Assembly: GCA_025774845.1 (NCBI GenBank)
Contig: JALGZP010000011.1
Coordinates: forward strand, 1-64,000
Length of the DNA stretch: 64,000 bases
Source of the DNA: a bacterium
Lineage (GTDB): Bacteria; Arandabacterota; Arandabacteria; Arandabacterales; Arandabacteraceae
Direction of reading: 5' to 3'
Below, one piece after another: positions 55,444 to 63,829 of this stretch. The translations under genes and the position numbers were made by a program. Each line of letters opens with the position of its first letter. The stretch's first letter is position 1. A model generated the notes under the pieces. The model saw only the letters and a program-made list of their open reading frames with translations, was not told where the DNA came from and did no database searches.

Positions 55444-56373
55444 ATGGGAAGCAAGAAGGACAAGAAGATATCCATAGAGCACAGGACGAGCAAAGTCGAC
55501 ATCAACGATTTCGCAGGTCTGCCTGACGGCTTCTCCTGGTATGAAAACCTGAGGTCGATGATCCCCCGGATCCTGAGGGGGAAGGACATCGAAGATCTGA
55601 GTGAGCGAGTTGTGGGAGCGAGACGGAATGACAGACCGGTCGTCATCATGATGGGCGCGCATGTGGTAAAGTGCGGTCTTGGCGGTCTGATCTGCGAGCT
55701 GATGAGAAAGGGTGTGGTAACTGCGCTTGCGATGAACGGAGCCTGCGCCATCCATGACGTGGAAATCGCGTTGTGGGGTAAGACATCCGAGGACGTGGAA
55801 GCCGGTCTCGAGCATGGGACTTTCGGGATGACCGGGGAGACCAGTGCGTTCTTCAATGACGCCGCCTCCGCTTGCCTGCAGGATGATATCGGGTTCGGGA
55901 AGGCCATAGGCGAACAGCTGGCCCGGATGAGACCCGCCAATCCGGAGCTCAGCGTTATGGCAACGGCACACAACCTGGGCATCCCTGTGACGGTGCACGT
56001 GGCCATCGGCACCGATGTCGTGCACCAGCATGACGAGGCCGACGGGAAGGCAATCGGTGCAGGCACATTGATGGATTTCCGTACGTTTTCATCCCTGGTA
56101 GCGGATCTCAACGGGGGTGTGATACTCAATCTGGGTTCGGCTGTCATAATGCCCGAGGTGTTTCTCAAGGCCCTGGCCAGGGCCCGTAACGCGGGTTCCG
56201 CTCTCGGGGAGTTCACAACAGCCAATTTCGACATGTTTTCCCTCTATAGGCCCACGACAAGTGTTGTCAGGCGGCCGAAAGCAATGGGAGCAACCACCTT
56301 CAGTTTCCTGGGTCACCACGAGATTCTCCTGCCTGTATTTGTCGCTTCAGTGCTGTCCAGAACAAGCGGCTGA
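55444..56373 (+). CDS. Deoxyhypusine synthase-like protein, apparently lacking the canonical active-site lysine
   Basis: VIMMGAHVVKCGLGGLICELMRKGVVTALAMNGACAIHDVEIAL; C-terminal GGVILNLGSAVIMPEVFLKAL where true DHS has a GGG..K motif. Confidence 0.62.
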   Translation: MGSKKDKKISIEHRTSKVDINDFAGLPDGFSWYENLRSMIPRILRGKDIEDLSERVVGARRNDRPVVIMMGAHVVKCGLGGLICELMRKGVVTALAMNGACAIHDVEIALWGKTSEDVEAGLEHGTFGMTGETSAFFNDAASACLQDDIGFGKAIGEQLARMRPANPELSVMATAHNLGIPVTVHVAIGTDVVHQHDEADGKAIGAGTLMDFRTFSSLVADLNGGVILNLGSAVIMPEVFLKALARARNAGSALGEFTTANFDMFSLYRPTTSVVRRPKAMGATTFSFLGHHEILLPVFVASVLSRTSG

Positions 56374-56491: not shown

Positions 56492-56522
56492 TTGCAATCT
56501 GCGAACAGCGGTTGCAATCTGC
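56492..56522 (+). promoter_or_regulatory. Two direct repeats TTGCAATCTGC, 20 bp apart, upstream of the promoter
   Basis: TTGCAATCTGC at 56492-56502 and 56512-56522; -35 element starts at 56537. Confidence 0.65.
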
Positions 56523-56536
56523 AGCACCGATGTTAC

Positions 56537-56565
56537 TTGACTTAGCAGAACTTATGTGCTATACT
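56537..56565 (+). promoter_or_regulatory. Sigma70-type promoter of the exopolysaccharide operon
   Basis: TTGACT (56537-56542), 17 nt, TATACT (56560-56565). Confidence 0.72.
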
Positions 56566-56571
56566 AAAAAA

Positions 56572-56740
56572 GTAATTAGGAGTGAAAGGAGTGGTTTCAG
56601 AGGTAAGCTTGCTACAGACAAAGCAGTAAAATTCGTTAGAACGACAGGATCGAACAGGTGTCTGATGGCAAGTTTACAGTGCACAGAGACAAAGTCAGAC
56701 TTTGACGGGATGATGCTTTCGCATTGTTCCGGTTTTTTTT
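56572..56740 (+). ncRNA. Predicted structured transcribed leader / possible small RNA upstream of the exopolysaccharide operon
   Basis: Lies between a good promoter and an intrinsic terminator. Contains short hairpins such as TCGTT-AG-AACGA and CAAAGTC-A-GACTTTG (56690-56704). No convincing conserved ORF. Confidence 0.45.
56707..56740 (+). terminator. Intrinsic terminator in the operon leader (candidate attenuator)
   Basis: GGGATGATGC-TTTC-GCATTGTTCC forms a 10-bp stem (three G-U pairs), followed by GG and T8. It ends 18 nt before the GTG start at 56758. Confidence 0.72.
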
Positions 56741-56757
56741 GATACAGGAGGACTGAA

Positions 56758-57510
56758 GTGAAACGATCGATCGCCATCTTGCTCGCGTGCCTGGCCCTTG
56801 CCGCCGGTTGTGGCGGATCCAAACCCGAACTTGAGCTGGATACGGTACCTGAGCCGACCCCAGTTGAGCAGGCCGAAGTTGAAATCCGAATGCCGGAGCG
56901 CCAGCCTTATACATTCGTGGCCGGGGATGCTTTCGCCCTCCGGTTCTTCTATTACCCTCAGCATAATGTTGAAGTCGTAATCAGACCTGATGGGATGGTC
57001 ACGATTCCCCTCCTGGGAGAGGTGATGGTTGAGGGGATGAAACCCACTGAACTTGAGGCTATCGTCAGAGCTCGCTACGCTGAGGCTGTGGCGGAACCTG
57101 AGGTCGCCGTCATAGTCTCTCAATTCGCTGATCAGACCGTATTTGTCTTTGGTGAGGTCAAGAGGCCGGGGGCATACCCTCTGCAAGGCAGTATGACCGT
57201 GGTTGATGCGGTCGCACGGGCCGGTGGTATTGCAGTGACCGGGAATGCAGGAAGCGTGATCCTGATGAGGAGAAACGGGGCCGAGGAGTACAGCGGCCGG
57301 AAGGTGGATCTCGACGCGGTCATAAGCGAGGAAGGGACAGAGCGCATCCACCTTATGCCCAGCGATGTGATCTTTGTGCCTATGACGGCGATCGCCAAGG
57401 TCGATCTATTTGTCGAACAGTACTTCAAGAACTTGTCTCCGGCATTACTGTTCTATTTATATGTGAATGATGTGGCAACCAGAGAAGGCAGTGTGATCAT
57501 CAGGAATTAG
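56758..57510 (+). CDS. Polysaccharide export outer-membrane lipoprotein (Wza family, SLBB)
   Basis: Lipobox AAGC, YTFVAGDAFALRFFYYPQHNVEVVIRPDGMVTIPLLGEVMVEGMKPTELEAIV, VFVFGEVKRPGAYPLQGSMTVVDAVARAGG. SD AGGAGG. Confidence 0.92.
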   Translation: MKRSIAILLACLALAAGCGGSKPELELDTVPEPTPVEQAEVEIRMPERQPYTFVAGDAFALRFFYYPQHNVEVVIRPDGMVTIPLLGEVMVEGMKPTELEAIVRARYAEAVAEPEVAVIVSQFADQTVFVFGEVKRPGAYPLQGSMTVVDAVARAGGIAVTGNAGSVILMRRNGAEEYSGRKVDLDAVISEEGTERIHLMPSDVIFVPMTAIAKVDLFVEQYFKNLSPALLFYLYVNDVATREGSVIIRN

Positions 57511-57544: not shown

Positions 57545-58978
57545 ATGACAGGAAACGGTTCAGGTGGGAGTCAGATTTCAGCACGAGAGATACTTACCGT
57601 CATTTTCAGACGGAAGGTTCCTATCATTCTCTGTGCGATCGTGGTAGCCGCGGCAGCGCTCAGTGCCGCGTCTCGAACAACGTCTGTCTATCAGGCCACG
57701 GCGAAGGTGTTGCTGAGAAGGACCGGTGCGCACCCGCTTGCGACCTCGTGGACGCCTTTCTACGGTCTCGAGGAGGAGATGAACACCGAGGTCGAGCTTG
57801 TCAACACCGCAACCGTATTGGATCATGCCGTGGATATACTCCGTGATGAGAACGTCCGTGTCCACGTAGCAGTCGCTGACAGCCAGGTCACTAGAGAGCC
57901 GACCGTTGGCGATCTCAGGGCGGGTATCGATGCCTACCCTGTGGAGATGTCAAACGTGATGTTGATCCGTTACACGGGGGCCGACCCGGCCTTCGTTGGT
58001 GAAGCGGCAAACGCAGTCGCGAAGGCATATGTCGAATACCGCGCACAGGTGAGGAAATCGGGTGATATGAAGAACTTCTTTGAGGACCAGCTGGCGGTAC
58101 TCGAAGGCAGGCTTATGGGCCTGATAGAGAGCGAGCTCGAGCTGAGGAAACAGGGTGAGATCTATGACCTTGAATGGCAATACCAGACCGCGATCTCCCG
58201 GAGCAGCGAACTAAGGGAGACCTGGGCCGATGTCAAGAGCAAGAGGATCGCCGAGGAAGAGAAACTCCGTCTGATAAAGAGCAGGCTCGAAGACGATCCG
58301 GATATCATGGTTCCGTTTTCCGACATTCTGAGATCCGGACTTGGCGCAGAGATGATGTCGGAGTACTGGCGACTGAAGGGAAAACGCGACGAGAAGGCGA
58401 CATACCTGACGGAGTCTAATCACGAGGTCAAGATGCTGGACATCCGGATCGAGAAGATGAGGGGGAGGTTCCGGGAGGAAGTCGACCGCCGGATAAAGGA
58501 GAAGGAGTTCCTGATAGAGGATCTCAAGGCTGAAGAGAACGGATTCGCGGTCCTGGTACAGGAGCTAGAGGAGGCACTGAGACAGACTCCCAAAGAGGTT
58601 GCACAGATTGAGCACCTGAAGAGAGAGATTCATTTCACATACACTCATTACGACAAGGTTCTCGACAAGATGTTGGATGCGGTGGCTGCCGAGGCCGACG
58701 ACATAAGAATTGCGAATGCCAAGGTCATCAGTCCTGCTATTGCACGTAGCACCAGGGCCGGCCAGATGCAGGGTGTTTACGTCGCGTTCTCAATTATGCT
58801 TGGCATAACGCTGGGTATCGGTTTCGGGTTCCTGCTTGAGAACCTCGATCACTCGGTGAAATCCGCAGCCGACGTTGAAGACGACATCGGGGTTCCGCTT
58901 CTTGGCTCGATACCTCAGAGCCGGAAGATGGCCGGATTGACGAACAGGGTCGACAGGACATTCGGAAAGGATTCGTAA
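57545..58978 (+). CDS. Wzz/GumC-type chain length determinant protein
   Basis: N- and C-terminal TM segments, central coiled coil, YQATAKVLLRRTG, NAKVISPAIARSTRAG. Confidence 0.9.
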   Translation: MTGNGSGGSQISAREILTVIFRRKVPIILCAIVVAAAALSAASRTTSVYQATAKVLLRRTGAHPLATSWTPFYGLEEEMNTEVELVNTATVLDHAVDILRDENVRVHVAVADSQVTREPTVGDLRAGIDAYPVEMSNVMLIRYTGADPAFVGEAANAVAKAYVEYRAQVRKSGDMKNFFEDQLAVLEGRLMGLIESELELRKQGEIYDLEWQYQTAISRSSELRETWADVKSKRIAEEEKLRLIKSRLEDDPDIMVPFSDILRSGLGAEMMSEYWRLKGKRDEKATYLTESNHEVKMLDIRIEKMRGRFREEVDRRIKEKEFLIEDLKAEENGFAVLVQELEEALRQTPKEVAQIEHLKREIHFTYTHYDKVLDKMLDAVAAEADDIRIANAKVISPAIARSTRAGQMQGVYVAFSIMLGITLGIGFGFLLENLDHSVKSAADVEDDIGVPLLGSIPQSRKMAGLTNRVDRTFGKDS

Positions 58979-58989
58979 CGAGGGTTTAA

Positions 58990-59682
58990 ATGGGAGATCG
59001 CAAGAAGAAAGGCAATACCCCGGATAAGGGATCGCAGAAATCAGCGGGACGGATCTTGTCCGAACAGGCTCTCTCTTATTACCGGGGACTGATCGGACAG
59101 ATCGAAATCGCATTACCCCGGCAGTCCTCGCGAGTCCTGCTGGTTTCGAGCTCGCTGGCGGGAGAGGGAACGACTGAGACGGTGGTCGGCCTGGGGCTGA
59201 CGCTTGCCGTGGCGTTGGGCAAGAAGACAGCCGTAATCGACTGCAATACTCATCATCCGGACTTGCACACGAGGTTCGGGACGCAGAAAGAGGGCGTGAG
59301 CGAGTATCTTCACGGTGAGATCCCCATCGAGCAGGCTCTGGTGAACACCACCGTTCCCAACCTGCATATAATGCCGCTCGGTGAGCATTTCGAGACTCTC
59401 TCTGCATACGACAAAGGGGATCTGGAGACATTCATTTCAGTCCTTCGGGAAAAGTTCGACTATGTGCTTGTCGATTCGGCGCCCGTGGGAACCAACCCGG
59501 AGTCGGTTGCCCTGTGTGACAAAGTCGATGCAGTAGTCCTGGTTGTCAAACACGGCAAGACCCGACGCGAAGTGGTCATGAGAACCAAAGAGATAATCGA
59601 GAGGGCCGGTGGCAGACTGCTTGGAGTAGTGTTCAACAAGAGGACTTTTCCTATACCGGGCTTCGTCTACAACAGATTGTAG
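58990..59682 (+). CDS. CpsD/CapB-like BY-kinase homologue with degenerate Walker A/A' (predicted pseudokinase)
   Basis: VLLVSSSLAGEGTTETVVGLGLTLAVALGKKTAVIDCNTHHPDLHTRFG...FDYVLVDSAPVG. Located after wza-wzz. Confidence 0.85.
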   Translation: MGDRKKKGNTPDKGSQKSAGRILSEQALSYYRGLIGQIEIALPRQSSRVLLVSSSLAGEGTTETVVGLGLTLAVALGKKTAVIDCNTHHPDLHTRFGTQKEGVSEYLHGEIPIEQALVNTTVPNLHIMPLGEHFETLSAYDKGDLETFISVLREKFDYVLVDSAPVGTNPESVALCDKVDAVVLVVKHGKTRREVVMRTKEIIERAGGRLLGVVFNKRTFPIPGFVYNRL

Positions 59683-59712
59683 CAGTGCTCCTGCGGGGGG
59701 GAGGGGCATTTC

Positions 59713-61224
59713 TTGATACATAGACTGAGTTCTAGGAGCGTGGAGGCACTCCTGAAACTGTTTCTGGTTACGGCCGTCGTGATCGGCGTCGCCTTGCGTT
59801 ATGTGCACTTGGGAAGGCAGAGTCTCTGGGTCGATGAGATGCTGACAATCATGAACTCACACATCGGGACTCCGATGGCTGCGTCGGATGTGTTCCGGAA
59901 TCTTCAGGGCCCGATGGTCTCGCTGATGATGCACCTCTGGGGTGCGATCGGGTCCGGAGAGGCATTCCTGCGCCTGCCGTTTGCACTGGCGGGCGGTTTC
60001 ACGGTCGTCGCAGTATTCTACCTGGCCAGACGCCTCGTGGGCACGTGGGCTTCCCTGCATACAACGTTCTTCGTGGCGATCTCGCCCATGCTGCTCTGGT
60101 ATTCACAAGAGGTGAGAGGCTACGCATTTGTGGTTCTCTTCGGCGTACTGATGACATACTTCCTTGTCAGATGGATGGCCAGGCCGTCGACGAGAGATCT
60201 TGTTCTCTATGGACTGTTCCTGTTTGCCGCACTCGTCTCTAATCTGAGCGCGGCTTTTATCGCATTCGCCCATTTCCTCTATCTGTTGCTCACACCGTCG
60301 AGAAGGAGGTTGCTCGGCAAGTGGATCGTTGCGATCTTCGTTGTCCTCCTGGTCTTCTCACCATGGGTTCGTGAGATAATGGTGCGAGTACATCCCGAAA
60401 AGGTGGTTACAGGTGATACGGGAACACCTTTGAGAGGCGGTGCCGAGCTTTCCGCCATGGTCGTACCATACTCCTTTTTCGCATACAGTGTGGGTTATTC
60501 CCTGGGGCCCTCGCTCAGGGATCTTAAGACGAGAAGAGCCGAAGCAATCAGGGAGAATATCCACTGGATTGCACTGGCCGCTGCAGTGTTTGCCATACCG
60601 GGGATCGTAGGCATCAGGAGCCTGCTCCGCACCAAACCGAATCTCCTGCTGCTGCTCGTTCTGTGGCTTGCAGTGCCGTTTCTGGCCATCATCGCTTTAG
60701 TCATTGGGAATGTGAAGGTCTTCACGCCGAGGTATGCGCTTGTCGCTTTTCCCGCGTACGCTCTGATTATAGGGCAGGGGCTTTCCGTTATCTCCAGGAC
60801 ACGGTTCTGGGTCCTTACCGTGATCCTGGCCGGTCTCTTGAGCATATCGATGTACAACTATTTCACCTCGCCAGTCTACGGCAAGGACGATGCGAGGTCG
60901 GCGGCGCGGTTCATCGCCGAAGACTTGAGGGAGAAAGACGTTGTCGCAGGTGTGTACACCGCGGAGCCGCTGATGCACTATCTCAAGGGGACGGCAGAGG
61001 TGGAGACCTTCGGCGCGGACGATATTAGTTCTCCTGAAAACATGGCCGCACGCTGCCGGTCGATCTCCGAGGGGGCCGGCCGGGTCTGGCTGAGCCTGTG
61101 CACTGAATGGCTTGTCGATCCGGACGGAAACATCCGGCGCTGGTTCGACGTCAACATGGATCTCGTGGCATTACATGATTTTCCGGGTATTCGACTCTGT
61201 CTTTACGAGAAACGGAGTGAATAG
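59713..61224 (+). CDS. Glycosyltransferase family 39-like (PMT-type) membrane protein
   Basis: HLGRQSLWVDEMLTIMNSH...GSGEAFLRLPFALAGGFTVVAVFYLARRLVG; many TM segments. TTG start. Confidence 0.85.
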   Translation: MIHRLSSRSVEALLKLFLVTAVVIGVALRYVHLGRQSLWVDEMLTIMNSHIGTPMAASDVFRNLQGPMVSLMMHLWGAIGSGEAFLRLPFALAGGFTVVAVFYLARRLVGTWASLHTTFFVAISPMLLWYSQEVRGYAFVVLFGVLMTYFLVRWMARPSTRDLVLYGLFLFAALVSNLSAAFIAFAHFLYLLLTPSRRRLLGKWIVAIFVVLLVFSPWVREIMVRVHPEKVVTGDTGTPLRGGAELSAMVVPYSFFAYSVGYSLGPSLRDLKTRRAEAIRENIHWIALAAAVFAIPGIVGIRSLLRTKPNLLLLLVLWLAVPFLAIIALVIGNVKVFTPRYALVAFPAYALIIGQGLSVISRTRFWVLTVILAGLLSISMYNYFTSPVYGKDDARSAARFIAEDLREKDVVAGVYTAEPLMHYLKGTAEVETFGADDISSPENMAARCRSISEGAGRVWLSLCTEWLVDPDGNIRRWFDVNMDLVALHDFPGIRLCLYEKRSE

Positions 61225-61227
61225 GAA

Positions 61228-62739
61228 TTGAAGGCACTGGTACAGAGAGCAGAGGGCTTCAAGGCGCCGGTCATGTTCATAGTTCTCGCGGTGCTTTCCA
61301 TGGCCATAGGCGTACTCGCGGGTTCTCGTGCAAGTTTTGACTTCAAGACCTTCTTTTACACCGTGGTACTCTCCAATGTCCTTGTAATTGCATACCTTCT
61401 ACTGATCAAGAACATGGCCTACGGGGTACTTATATACCTCTACTCGCTGATCTTCCTGAACTACTACTGGCGGATCGTGATTCCGGGCACCTGGCCCGAC
61501 ATTGACATTCCGCGGCTCGTGTTTGTATTCATCTGGGTGATCTTCCTGCTTGAGATCGCAGTGGGGGGGAGACGCCTGTTGCCCAGAACCAGGATCGAGC
61601 CGGTGATGATGGCTATGGTTGCCGCCATACTGATCTCGATGAATACCAACGGGCAGGTGTTTATACGGCAGATGTTGAACGGGTTCGCCATTCCGTATGC
61701 GATGTTCATCATCGCCAAGAACGTGTTCACCACACGGGACGGGCTTACGAAGTTCTTACGCTGGCTTTCCATCCCGTTGTCAATATACTTCCCCGTCAAT
61801 CACATGTTTGAGCATTACAGAATCACCGCACTGGTCTTTCCCAAGTTTATTCTCAACCCTGCGATTTCCGGCCGGGAGGTGTTCTGGGGCGAAAGGACCA
61901 TGGGTGTCTTTCTTCAGCCCTCGGTGACGGGTATGGCGATGGTATCGATGTTCGTGCTCAGTCTTTACAGTCTTTCAAGGATGAGGGGCGCCGTGGCGAG
62001 GATCTTGCCGTGGTTCCTGACCGGCGTGACACCGGTCGCGGTCTTCTTCAGTTACACAAGATCCGTTTATCTCGGCTTCTTCTTCGCGATGATGGCGCTC
62101 ATCCTGTTCTCACGTAAATTGAAGGTCTACGCCCTGGTCATCGTTGTTGCAATAGCGCTTGGGGTTATGGGTAACTGGTCGAATGTTACAAGCGAGGACC
62201 GGAGTGCCGGCGGCATCGGGACAAAATCTACCGCGATAGGAAGGCTCACACTTCTGCAGGCATCGATGTCGATGTTTGTCGACCGCCCGCTTTTCGGGGT
62301 GGGATTTCAGAACTTCAGGAAGTACGCAGAGCCGTACGTCCGGCAGGTCAGGACAACGGTGCTGGGGTACCGCGAGTCATGGATCGGCAAGGGCATAAGC
62401 CAGCACAATCACTTCCTGAGTATCCTTACCGAAACAGGTTTGATGGGAGTCATCCCGCTTCTTCTTGTCTGGTTCTTCGTATTGCAGGGCGTAATACGTG
62501 CGCGATCGGCGACCTCAGTCATGTACGATTCCGACTTCGTCGTAGTTGTCTTGGCAGTATTCGCGCAGTACCTGACCGCTTCCATGTTTATGGAGCCTAG
62601 ATGGTTTGAGTTCATGAATACCCTACCGTATCTACTTGCCGGCATTGTAGTCGGCGGATACCAGAGAGCAACGCTGCCGGGACTTAACGGCGGCATGGCA
62701 GGTGAAAGGAGTGTACCACGTGAAGGTCCCGTTCGTTGA
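61228..62739 (+). CDS. O-antigen ligase/polymerase-like membrane protein
   Basis: Multi-TM; FSYTRSVYLGFFFAMMALILFSRK and FGVGFQNFRKYAEPYV...GISQHNHFLSILTETGLMG (Wzy_C-like). Confidence 0.85.
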   Translation: MKALVQRAEGFKAPVMFIVLAVLSMAIGVLAGSRASFDFKTFFYTVVLSNVLVIAYLLLIKNMAYGVLIYLYSLIFLNYYWRIVIPGTWPDIDIPRLVFVFIWVIFLLEIAVGGRRLLPRTRIEPVMMAMVAAILISMNTNGQVFIRQMLNGFAIPYAMFIIAKNVFTTRDGLTKFLRWLSIPLSIYFPVNHMFEHYRITALVFPKFILNPAISGREVFWGERTMGVFLQPSVTGMAMVSMFVLSLYSLSRMRGAVARILPWFLTGVTPVAVFFSYTRSVYLGFFFAMMALILFSRKLKVYALVIVVAIALGVMGNWSNVTSEDRSAGGIGTKSTAIGRLTLLQASMSMFVDRPLFGVGFQNFRKYAEPYVRQVRTTVLGYRESWIGKGISQHNHFLSILTETGLMGVIPLLLVWFFVLQGVIRARSATSVMYDSDFVVVVLAVFAQYLTASMFMEPRWFEFMNTLPYLLAGIVVGGYQRATLPGLNGGMAGERSVPREGPVR

Positions 62740-63829
62740 CCTCAAGGCGCAATACGCGGCCATGAAGGAGGAAATCCACGCATCGATCATGGAGGTTGTC
62801 GAGAACACAGCATTTGTGGGCGGCAAGTACGTTGATCAATTCGAGAAGGATTTCGCGGAGTTCTGTGGATGCAAGTATGCGGTCGGGATGAGCTCGGGCA
62901 CTTCGGCTCTGCAGCTGGCGCTTCTCGGGCTGGGTGTAAAGCCCGGTGACGAGGTCATAACCGCAGCCAACACTTTCATAGCCACCACGGAAGCCATAAC
63001 CCACGCAGGGTGTTCCATCAGTCTTGTCGATGCCGATGCCGGAAACTTCAACATAGATCCGGCGCTCATTGAGGCGGCGATCACAGAGCGGACCAAGGTC
63101 CTTATCCCGGTTCACCTGTACGGTCAGACAGCGGACATGGATGCGGTCATGGAGATCGCGAAGAAACACAACCTCCTGGTGTTGGAGGACGCAGCTCAAG
63201 CCCAGGGTGCAGAATACAAGGGTAAGATGGCGGGCTCGCTGGGTGATGCCGCTTCGTTCAGCTTCTATCCTGCTAAGAACCTTGGCGCTTACGGTGATGC
63301 CGGCATCGTGGTCACAAACGATGAGGCGGTAGCCGACCGGGTGCGGCTGTTCTCCAATCACGGCAGACGGAGCGCCACCGATCACTCGGTTGAGGGTTTC
63401 AATGAGAGGCTTGACGGCATCCAGGCGGCGGTCCTTAGCACGAAGCTGCCAAGGCTTCAGAAGTGGAATGACTTAAGACGGGAGGCTGCGGATCGTTACA
63501 ACACGCTACTGAGCGGTCTTGACGTCGTCACACCTGGAGAGATGTCCTATGCAAAACATATATATCACCTCTATGTGATCAGGATCCGTGAGCGGGACAA
63601 GGTGAGGGAGACCATGGCCGAAAAGGGAGTAGGCTGTGGTATGCACTACCCGATACCCATACACCTGCTTGACGCATACAAGCGACTCGGAAAGTCCGCG
63701 GGTTCGTATCCTGTGACCGAGAAGGTCGCTTCTGAGATTCTCTCGCTGCCGATATTCCCGGAGATTACGCCGGAGCAGCAGGAGTACGTTGCACAGTCGT
63801 TGGCTGAGGTCCTTGAAAAGGTAGGATAG
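62720..63829 (+). CDS. DegT/DnrJ/EryC1/StrS family sugar aminotransferase
   Basis: VPFVDLKAQYAAMKEEI, VGMSSGTSALQLALLGLGVKPGDEVI, LEDAAQAQGAEYKGKMAGSLGDAASFSFYPAKNLGAYGDAG. GTG 62720. Confidence 0.94.
   Translation: MKVPFVDLKAQYAAMKEEIHASIMEVVENTAFVGGKYVDQFEKDFAEFCGCKYAVGMSSGTSALQLALLGLGVKPGDEVITAANTFIATTEAITHAGCSISLVDADAGNFNIDPALIEAAITERTKVLIPVHLYGQTADMDAVMEIAKKHNLLVLEDAAQAQGAEYKGKMAGSLGDAASFSFYPAKNLGAYGDAGIVVTNDEAVADRVRLFSNHGRRSATDHSVEGFNERLDGIQAAVLSTKLPRLQKWNDLRREAADRYNTLLSGLDVVTPGEMSYAKHIYHLYVIRIRERDKVRETMAEKGVGCGMHYPIPIHLLDAYKRLGKSAGSYPVTEKVASEILSLPIFPEITPEQQEYVAQSLAEVLEKVG

Follow-up and report, generated by a model that had tools for sequence, protein, structure and literature searches.

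A conserved leader with an intrinsic terminator precedes a polysaccharide operon in one bacterial family and probably acts as an attenuator

The exopolysaccharide operon in the window, the 64,000-nucleotide stretch of bacterial DNA analysed here, is preceded by a promoter, a short conserved 5′ element, a long hairpin (P1) and an intrinsic terminator. We put the probability that these parts make up a conserved cis-regulatory attenuator leader, whatever its trigger, at about 85%. Four relatives with this cluster have retained both the hairpin and the stop signal, and expression of the cluster is therefore probably under the control of some signal. In well-studied bacteria, long polysaccharide operons depend on processive antitermination, usually via a NusG paralogue. 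The lineage described here appears to gate such an operon by a conserved leader and terminator with no detectable NusG paralogue, which would suggest either that antitermination here is directed by RNA in a new way or that the leader is a new sensory RNA. An initial annotation of this DNA had proposed an attenuator or antitermination leader; that proposal gains from the conservation of promoter, element and terminator across five genomes and from the lack of an Rfam match, while its NusG-dependent variant is not supported.

The promoter lies on the forward strand at 56537–56565, where the sequence scan recovered the annotated TTGACT-17-TATACT together with an extended −10 (TG). It is the best sigma-70-like site within the scanned stretch, and when the five genomes are aligned 21 of its 29 columns are invariant, with no indels. 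About 134 nt of leader separate it from the terminator hairpin; with transcription predicted to start at about 56572, the terminated transcript would be roughly 165–169 nt long. Immediately 5′ of the −35 element are two perfect 11-bp direct repeats of TTGCAATCTGC (56492–56502 and 56512–56522, forward strand), 20 bp apart, which are probably sites for an activator. The motif TTGCA/TGCAA clusters within about 50 bp 5′ of the −35 element at all five promoters, at 4–6 occurrences per 110 bp of upstream sequence against 0.18–0.23 expected. This density is far above chance, which makes it probable that initiation, too, is under control. Two genomes have an extended −10 promoter like that of the leader (TTGACAT...GATGTGCTATA) next to a KsgA/RsmA-like gene, at L108 (G000:C30, in the genome of the window) and L110 (G002:C162, in a relative); promoters of the form TGTGCTATA may therefore be common in the family.

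The terminator occupies 56706–56740 on the forward strand. An 11-bp stem closed by a TTTC loop spans 56706–56731, followed by one G and a T8 tract at 56733–56740; the loop and the T8 are as first annotated, and the stem, given there as 10 bp from 56707, is one pair longer. All five leaders carry a T-tract, and all five have a comparable terminator, whereas of the 300 dinucleotide shuffles made of each leader between 0 and 8 contain one. Five of ten stem pairs have changed on both sides among the five leaders, and from these compensated pairs we read the terminator as being needed as a terminator. Across the first 26 kb downstream it has the strongest stem and is the sole candidate with a T8. 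In one relative (G003, L006), about 150 nt that include a further GC-rich hairpin lie between the terminator and the first gene, unlike in the other leaders.

Downstream, a Shine-Dalgarno sequence (AGGAGG, 56746–56751, forward strand) and a GTG start codon at 56758 are located as initially annotated. The first gene (56758–57510, forward strand) encodes a Wza-like outer-membrane polysaccharide export protein with Poly_export and SLBB domains (PF02563, E = 2.5e-15). The rest of the operon within the window (57545–63829, forward strand) encodes Wzz, a CpsD-like tyrosine autokinase, a PMT_2 glycosyltransferase, Wzy and a DegT aminotransferase, and beyond it follow a polyprenyl glycosylphosphotransferase, a Gfo/Idh oxidoreductase, a hexapeptide acetyltransferase, a radical SAM protein and glycosyltransferases. 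The cluster is colinear, entirely on the forward strand and about 14.5 kb long, reaching contig position ~71254, and its gene order looks alike in the relative G002. Upstream of the leader are genes for DUF3108 and GSU2086-family proteins, likewise in the relatives to the extent that their contigs cover this region. The GSU2086-family gene (55444–56373) adjoins the leader on its 5′ side, as it does in the relatives, and its product distantly resembles the ornithine cyclodeaminase domain of ArgZ. Outside the window, this contig also carries phosphonate genes near the cluster (L068:16275-18724 and L069:439-2403), encoding a PEP mutase–cytidylyltransferase fusion, a phosphonopyruvate decarboxylase, an iron-containing alcohol dehydrogenase and a LicD protein; these genes suggest a phosphonate-decorated glycan.

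When 60 genomes were searched at the DNA level, four, all of the same family, proved to have the promoter and 5′ leader. Two of these (G002 and G005) belong to one genus and the others (G003 and G004) to two more, so that with the genome of the window (G000) the set comprises five genomes from four genera. The first gene has orthologues in all four relatives, 50–55% identical at the protein level. In G002, G003 and G004 the orthologue directly follows the leader; in G005 the contig bearing the leader breaks off shortly after the gene begins, and the orthologue that was scored lies on a different contig. The order promoter, leader, terminator is seen in all five genomes that have the orthologous first gene. 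No orthologue was present in another family member (G001) or in a genome of the same order (G006), and a 33% relative in a genome of the same class (G007) sits at a contig edge, with no comparable leader in the 127 nt available upstream. Absence of conservation among close relatives had been named as a finding that would refute the initial proposal; both leader and terminator are in fact conserved. The accessioned copies of the leader are metagenome-assembled genomes (MAGs), one of them labelled Candidatus Eisenbacteria, and the conservation analyses rest on five sequences from draft MAGs.

Wider searches returned little else. A pattern scan over 84,980 species yielded the four relatives and one chance match, on a Methylococcaceae contig, which we rejected as it reads as coding DNA. 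With a covariance model, the five leaders scored 92–112 bits, and nothing else scored above 28.3 bits among eight phylum members and 386 genomes; nor did the model find a convincing second copy within the family. The two best matches in other phyla (26–28 bits), the only ones inspected there, overlap coding genes and were discarded. The leader therefore appears, as far as these genomes tell, to be restricted to one family of a sparsely sampled uncultured lineage.

Within the leader, conservation falls into islands. Pairwise identity is 84% in the promoter, 37% over the next 18 nt, 93% in the 5′ element GAARGGAGUGRU (here GAAAGGAGUGGU, 56584–56595, forward strand), 36% over the following 5 nt, 97% in the 5′ arm of P1 (GGUAAGCUUGCUA, 56602–56614), 43% in the apical segment (56615–56665), 89% in the 3′ arm (UGGCAAGUUUACA, 56666–56678), 42% in the linker and 61% in the terminator, the islands standing against a background of 36–43% in the intervening segments. 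From the −35 element through the gapless 5′ arm of P1 there are no gaps in 79 columns, 23 of them unconserved, and the distance from the 5′ element to the −10 is identical in the five genomes; the apical segment and linker vary in length. Since the stretch stays gapless through unconserved columns, the distance between promoter and P1 may be under constraint.

P1 (56602–56678, forward strand) is the dominant fold of the leader, with a core of 13 pairs that reaches about 18 bp in the genome of the window; a stem extension in the apical segment, CAGACA/UGUCUG, is specific to that genome. The initial description of several small hairpins was imprecise in this respect, as one long hairpin, which it had missed, dominates. 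Set against shuffles of its own sequence, the leader region has a fold better by 2.3 sd (z = −2.3), and P1 cells are paired in 98.5% of cases compared with 15–48% for slid controls. Nine of the 13 pairs never vary among the five leaders. P1 alone shows no covariation beyond shuffles, with one compensated pair that 194 of 500 shuffles match, five sequences being too few for such a test; P1 and the terminator taken together give a covariation of 0.326 against 0.215 in shuffles, with none of 500 as high. In the terminator it is the structure that has been conserved, in P1 the sequence, and the near-invariance of the P1 arms suggests that they are recognised sequence-specifically. P1 could also act as inverted repeats in DNA; in that role the outer distance differs by 5–6 bp between the genome of the window and the others, which speaks mildly against DNA looping. 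A hairpin presenting GGAGUG in its loop was considered and rejected, its stem registers differing among genomes and its folds being weak.

This pattern bears on several other accounts. The terminator might merely lower expression constitutively, or the 165-nt RNA might act elsewhere as a small RNA: promoter and terminator would together give a discrete RNA of about 165 nt, and no trigger was found. Neither possibility, however, would by itself call for invariant P1 arms, a fixed distance to the promoter or presence at one locus only, and we consider both improbable. Control of the CsrA/RsmA type, with the conserved ARGGAG as the CsrA site governing the leader, strikes us as slightly less probable still. 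CsrA controls other polysaccharide operons, namely pga and psl; the ANGGA core occurs in the 5′ element at the same place in all five leaders, and four of the five leader-bearing genomes have csrA genes. Yet none was found in the window's own genome, which is 87% complete, ANGGA counts lie near chance expectation with no enrichment of sites, and the invariant P1 arms would be left unexplained. CsrA is present in all seven other phylum members, so its absence from G000 is either an assembly gap or a loss.

Attenuation by a leader peptide would have a ribosome on an open reading frame of 5–8 codons (TTG at 56609), or on one from an in-frame GTG at 56591, set the fold by its position. A stop follows the TTG in frame within nine codons in all five leaders, with an SD-like AGG upstream. 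The peptide sequences diverge, however, the GTG frame stops at codon 3 in G005, and P1 and the terminator do not overlap; moreover, conservation covers all codon positions and so operates at the level of RNA. We hold this account to be very improbable.

We tentatively favour, at somewhat under even odds, a mechanism in which the 5′ element and P1 are recognised by a factor or by RNA polymerase itself, leading to read-through of the terminator. RNA polymerase would start at about 56572 and make some 165 nt of RNA, stopping by default at the terminator (56706–56740), ahead of the first gene. Under conditions that call for the operon, a factor, either an RNA-binding protein or, as with EAR or put RNA, the polymerase itself, would engage the leader, recognising GAARGGAGUGRU and P1 as the RNA emerges and letting the polymerase pass. 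Termination at this site, recognition at P1 and read-through as the outcome are all inferred. Both P1 and the terminator form in all five minimum-energy folds; as they coexist without overlap, read-through would need more than a simple hairpin swap, and recognition by a factor or polymerase is favoured for this reason. Counting against it, no candidate antitermination factor was found, the operon contains no extra strong terminators that would demand a processive effect, and a ligand-binding RNA would be expected to show much the same conservation.

The last point leads to a riboswitch or competing hairpin, in which a small molecule would bind the P1 region and the 5′ element would pair with the 3′ arm and U-tract of the terminator as an antiterminator. 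In the two genomes of genus g3 this pairing reaches −17.6 and −19.1 kcal/mol, values equalled by 1.0% and 0% of 1000 shuffles, and the same long-range pairing appears in four of five folds when the 5′ arm of the terminator is blocked. In the other three genomes, that of the window included, it is not significant (19–33% of shuffles as good). Nor does a leader in general pair better with its own terminator than with that of another genome, and no Rfam riboswitch matches. Since the pairing is strong solely in g3, with whose terminators the leaders of other genomes also pair well, a competing hairpin is not established as a shared mechanism, and we judge it unlikely, if still a serious contender. 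Returning to recognition of the leader RNA, GAARGGAGUGRU and P1 form a small, well-bounded element that may, though we think this less likely than not, represent a new class of antitermination RNA for polysaccharide operons or a new class of riboswitch, one that works without a NusG paralogue and is read close to the promoter, its distance from the transcription start being fixed.

Antitermination by a NusG paralogue, as in RfaH/ops, LoaP/dfn or UpxY, is largely refuted, and we give it next to no weight. The layout of promoter, hairpin, terminator and long operon is indeed that of the LoaP dfn leader. Against this, four of the five leader-bearing genomes, 85–96% complete, have exactly one NusG, and the sole NusG of the window's genome is the housekeeping protein, its gene lying between secE and rplK. 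The search for a paralogue that had been suggested at the outset gave one match to PF02357 in each of seven genomes and none in the eighth, the fifth leader-bearing genome, which is 73% complete, so that a single NusG, and no paralogue, is found wherever there is one. The annotated lack of an obvious ops sequence is likewise confirmed, with no match at up to three mismatches within 56500–56760. GGTAAGYTTGC was considered as ops-like and dropped, since an insertion and substitutions would be needed and RfaH is lacking. Rfam gave no match at the gathering score over the whole window and, at E ≤ 10 over the leader, a single 12.4-bit chance match to another family, EAR not being matched. ANTAR (PF03861) had no match in eight genomes, a search in which the control genomes were equally silent.

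Among the closest known systems are the LoaP-dependent dfn and mln leaders of Bacillus velezensis, where a 5′ hairpin and then an intrinsic terminator stand ahead of the first gene of a long operon (PMC12691694). The hairpin there is a small UNCG hairpin, whereas P1 has a long stem and a large apical segment that varies, and no NusG paralogue was found to accompany it. The RfaH/ops/JUMPstart leaders of enterobacteria likewise place a conserved element upstream of polysaccharide operons; here there is no ops match and no RfaH homologue, and an intrinsic terminator precedes the first gene. Terminator-type riboswitches resemble the leader in having a conserved 5′ RNA followed by a terminator of variable sequence, but no known aptamer was matched and no alternative pairing is common to the five leaders. 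EAR of Bacillus eps operons and put RNA of phage HK022 are structured RNAs tied to read-through without a NusG paralogue. EAR lies inside its operon, whereas the leader lies between promoter and first gene; what the leader would share with EAR and put RNA is a structured RNA linked to read-through of an operon, with no NusG paralogue involved.
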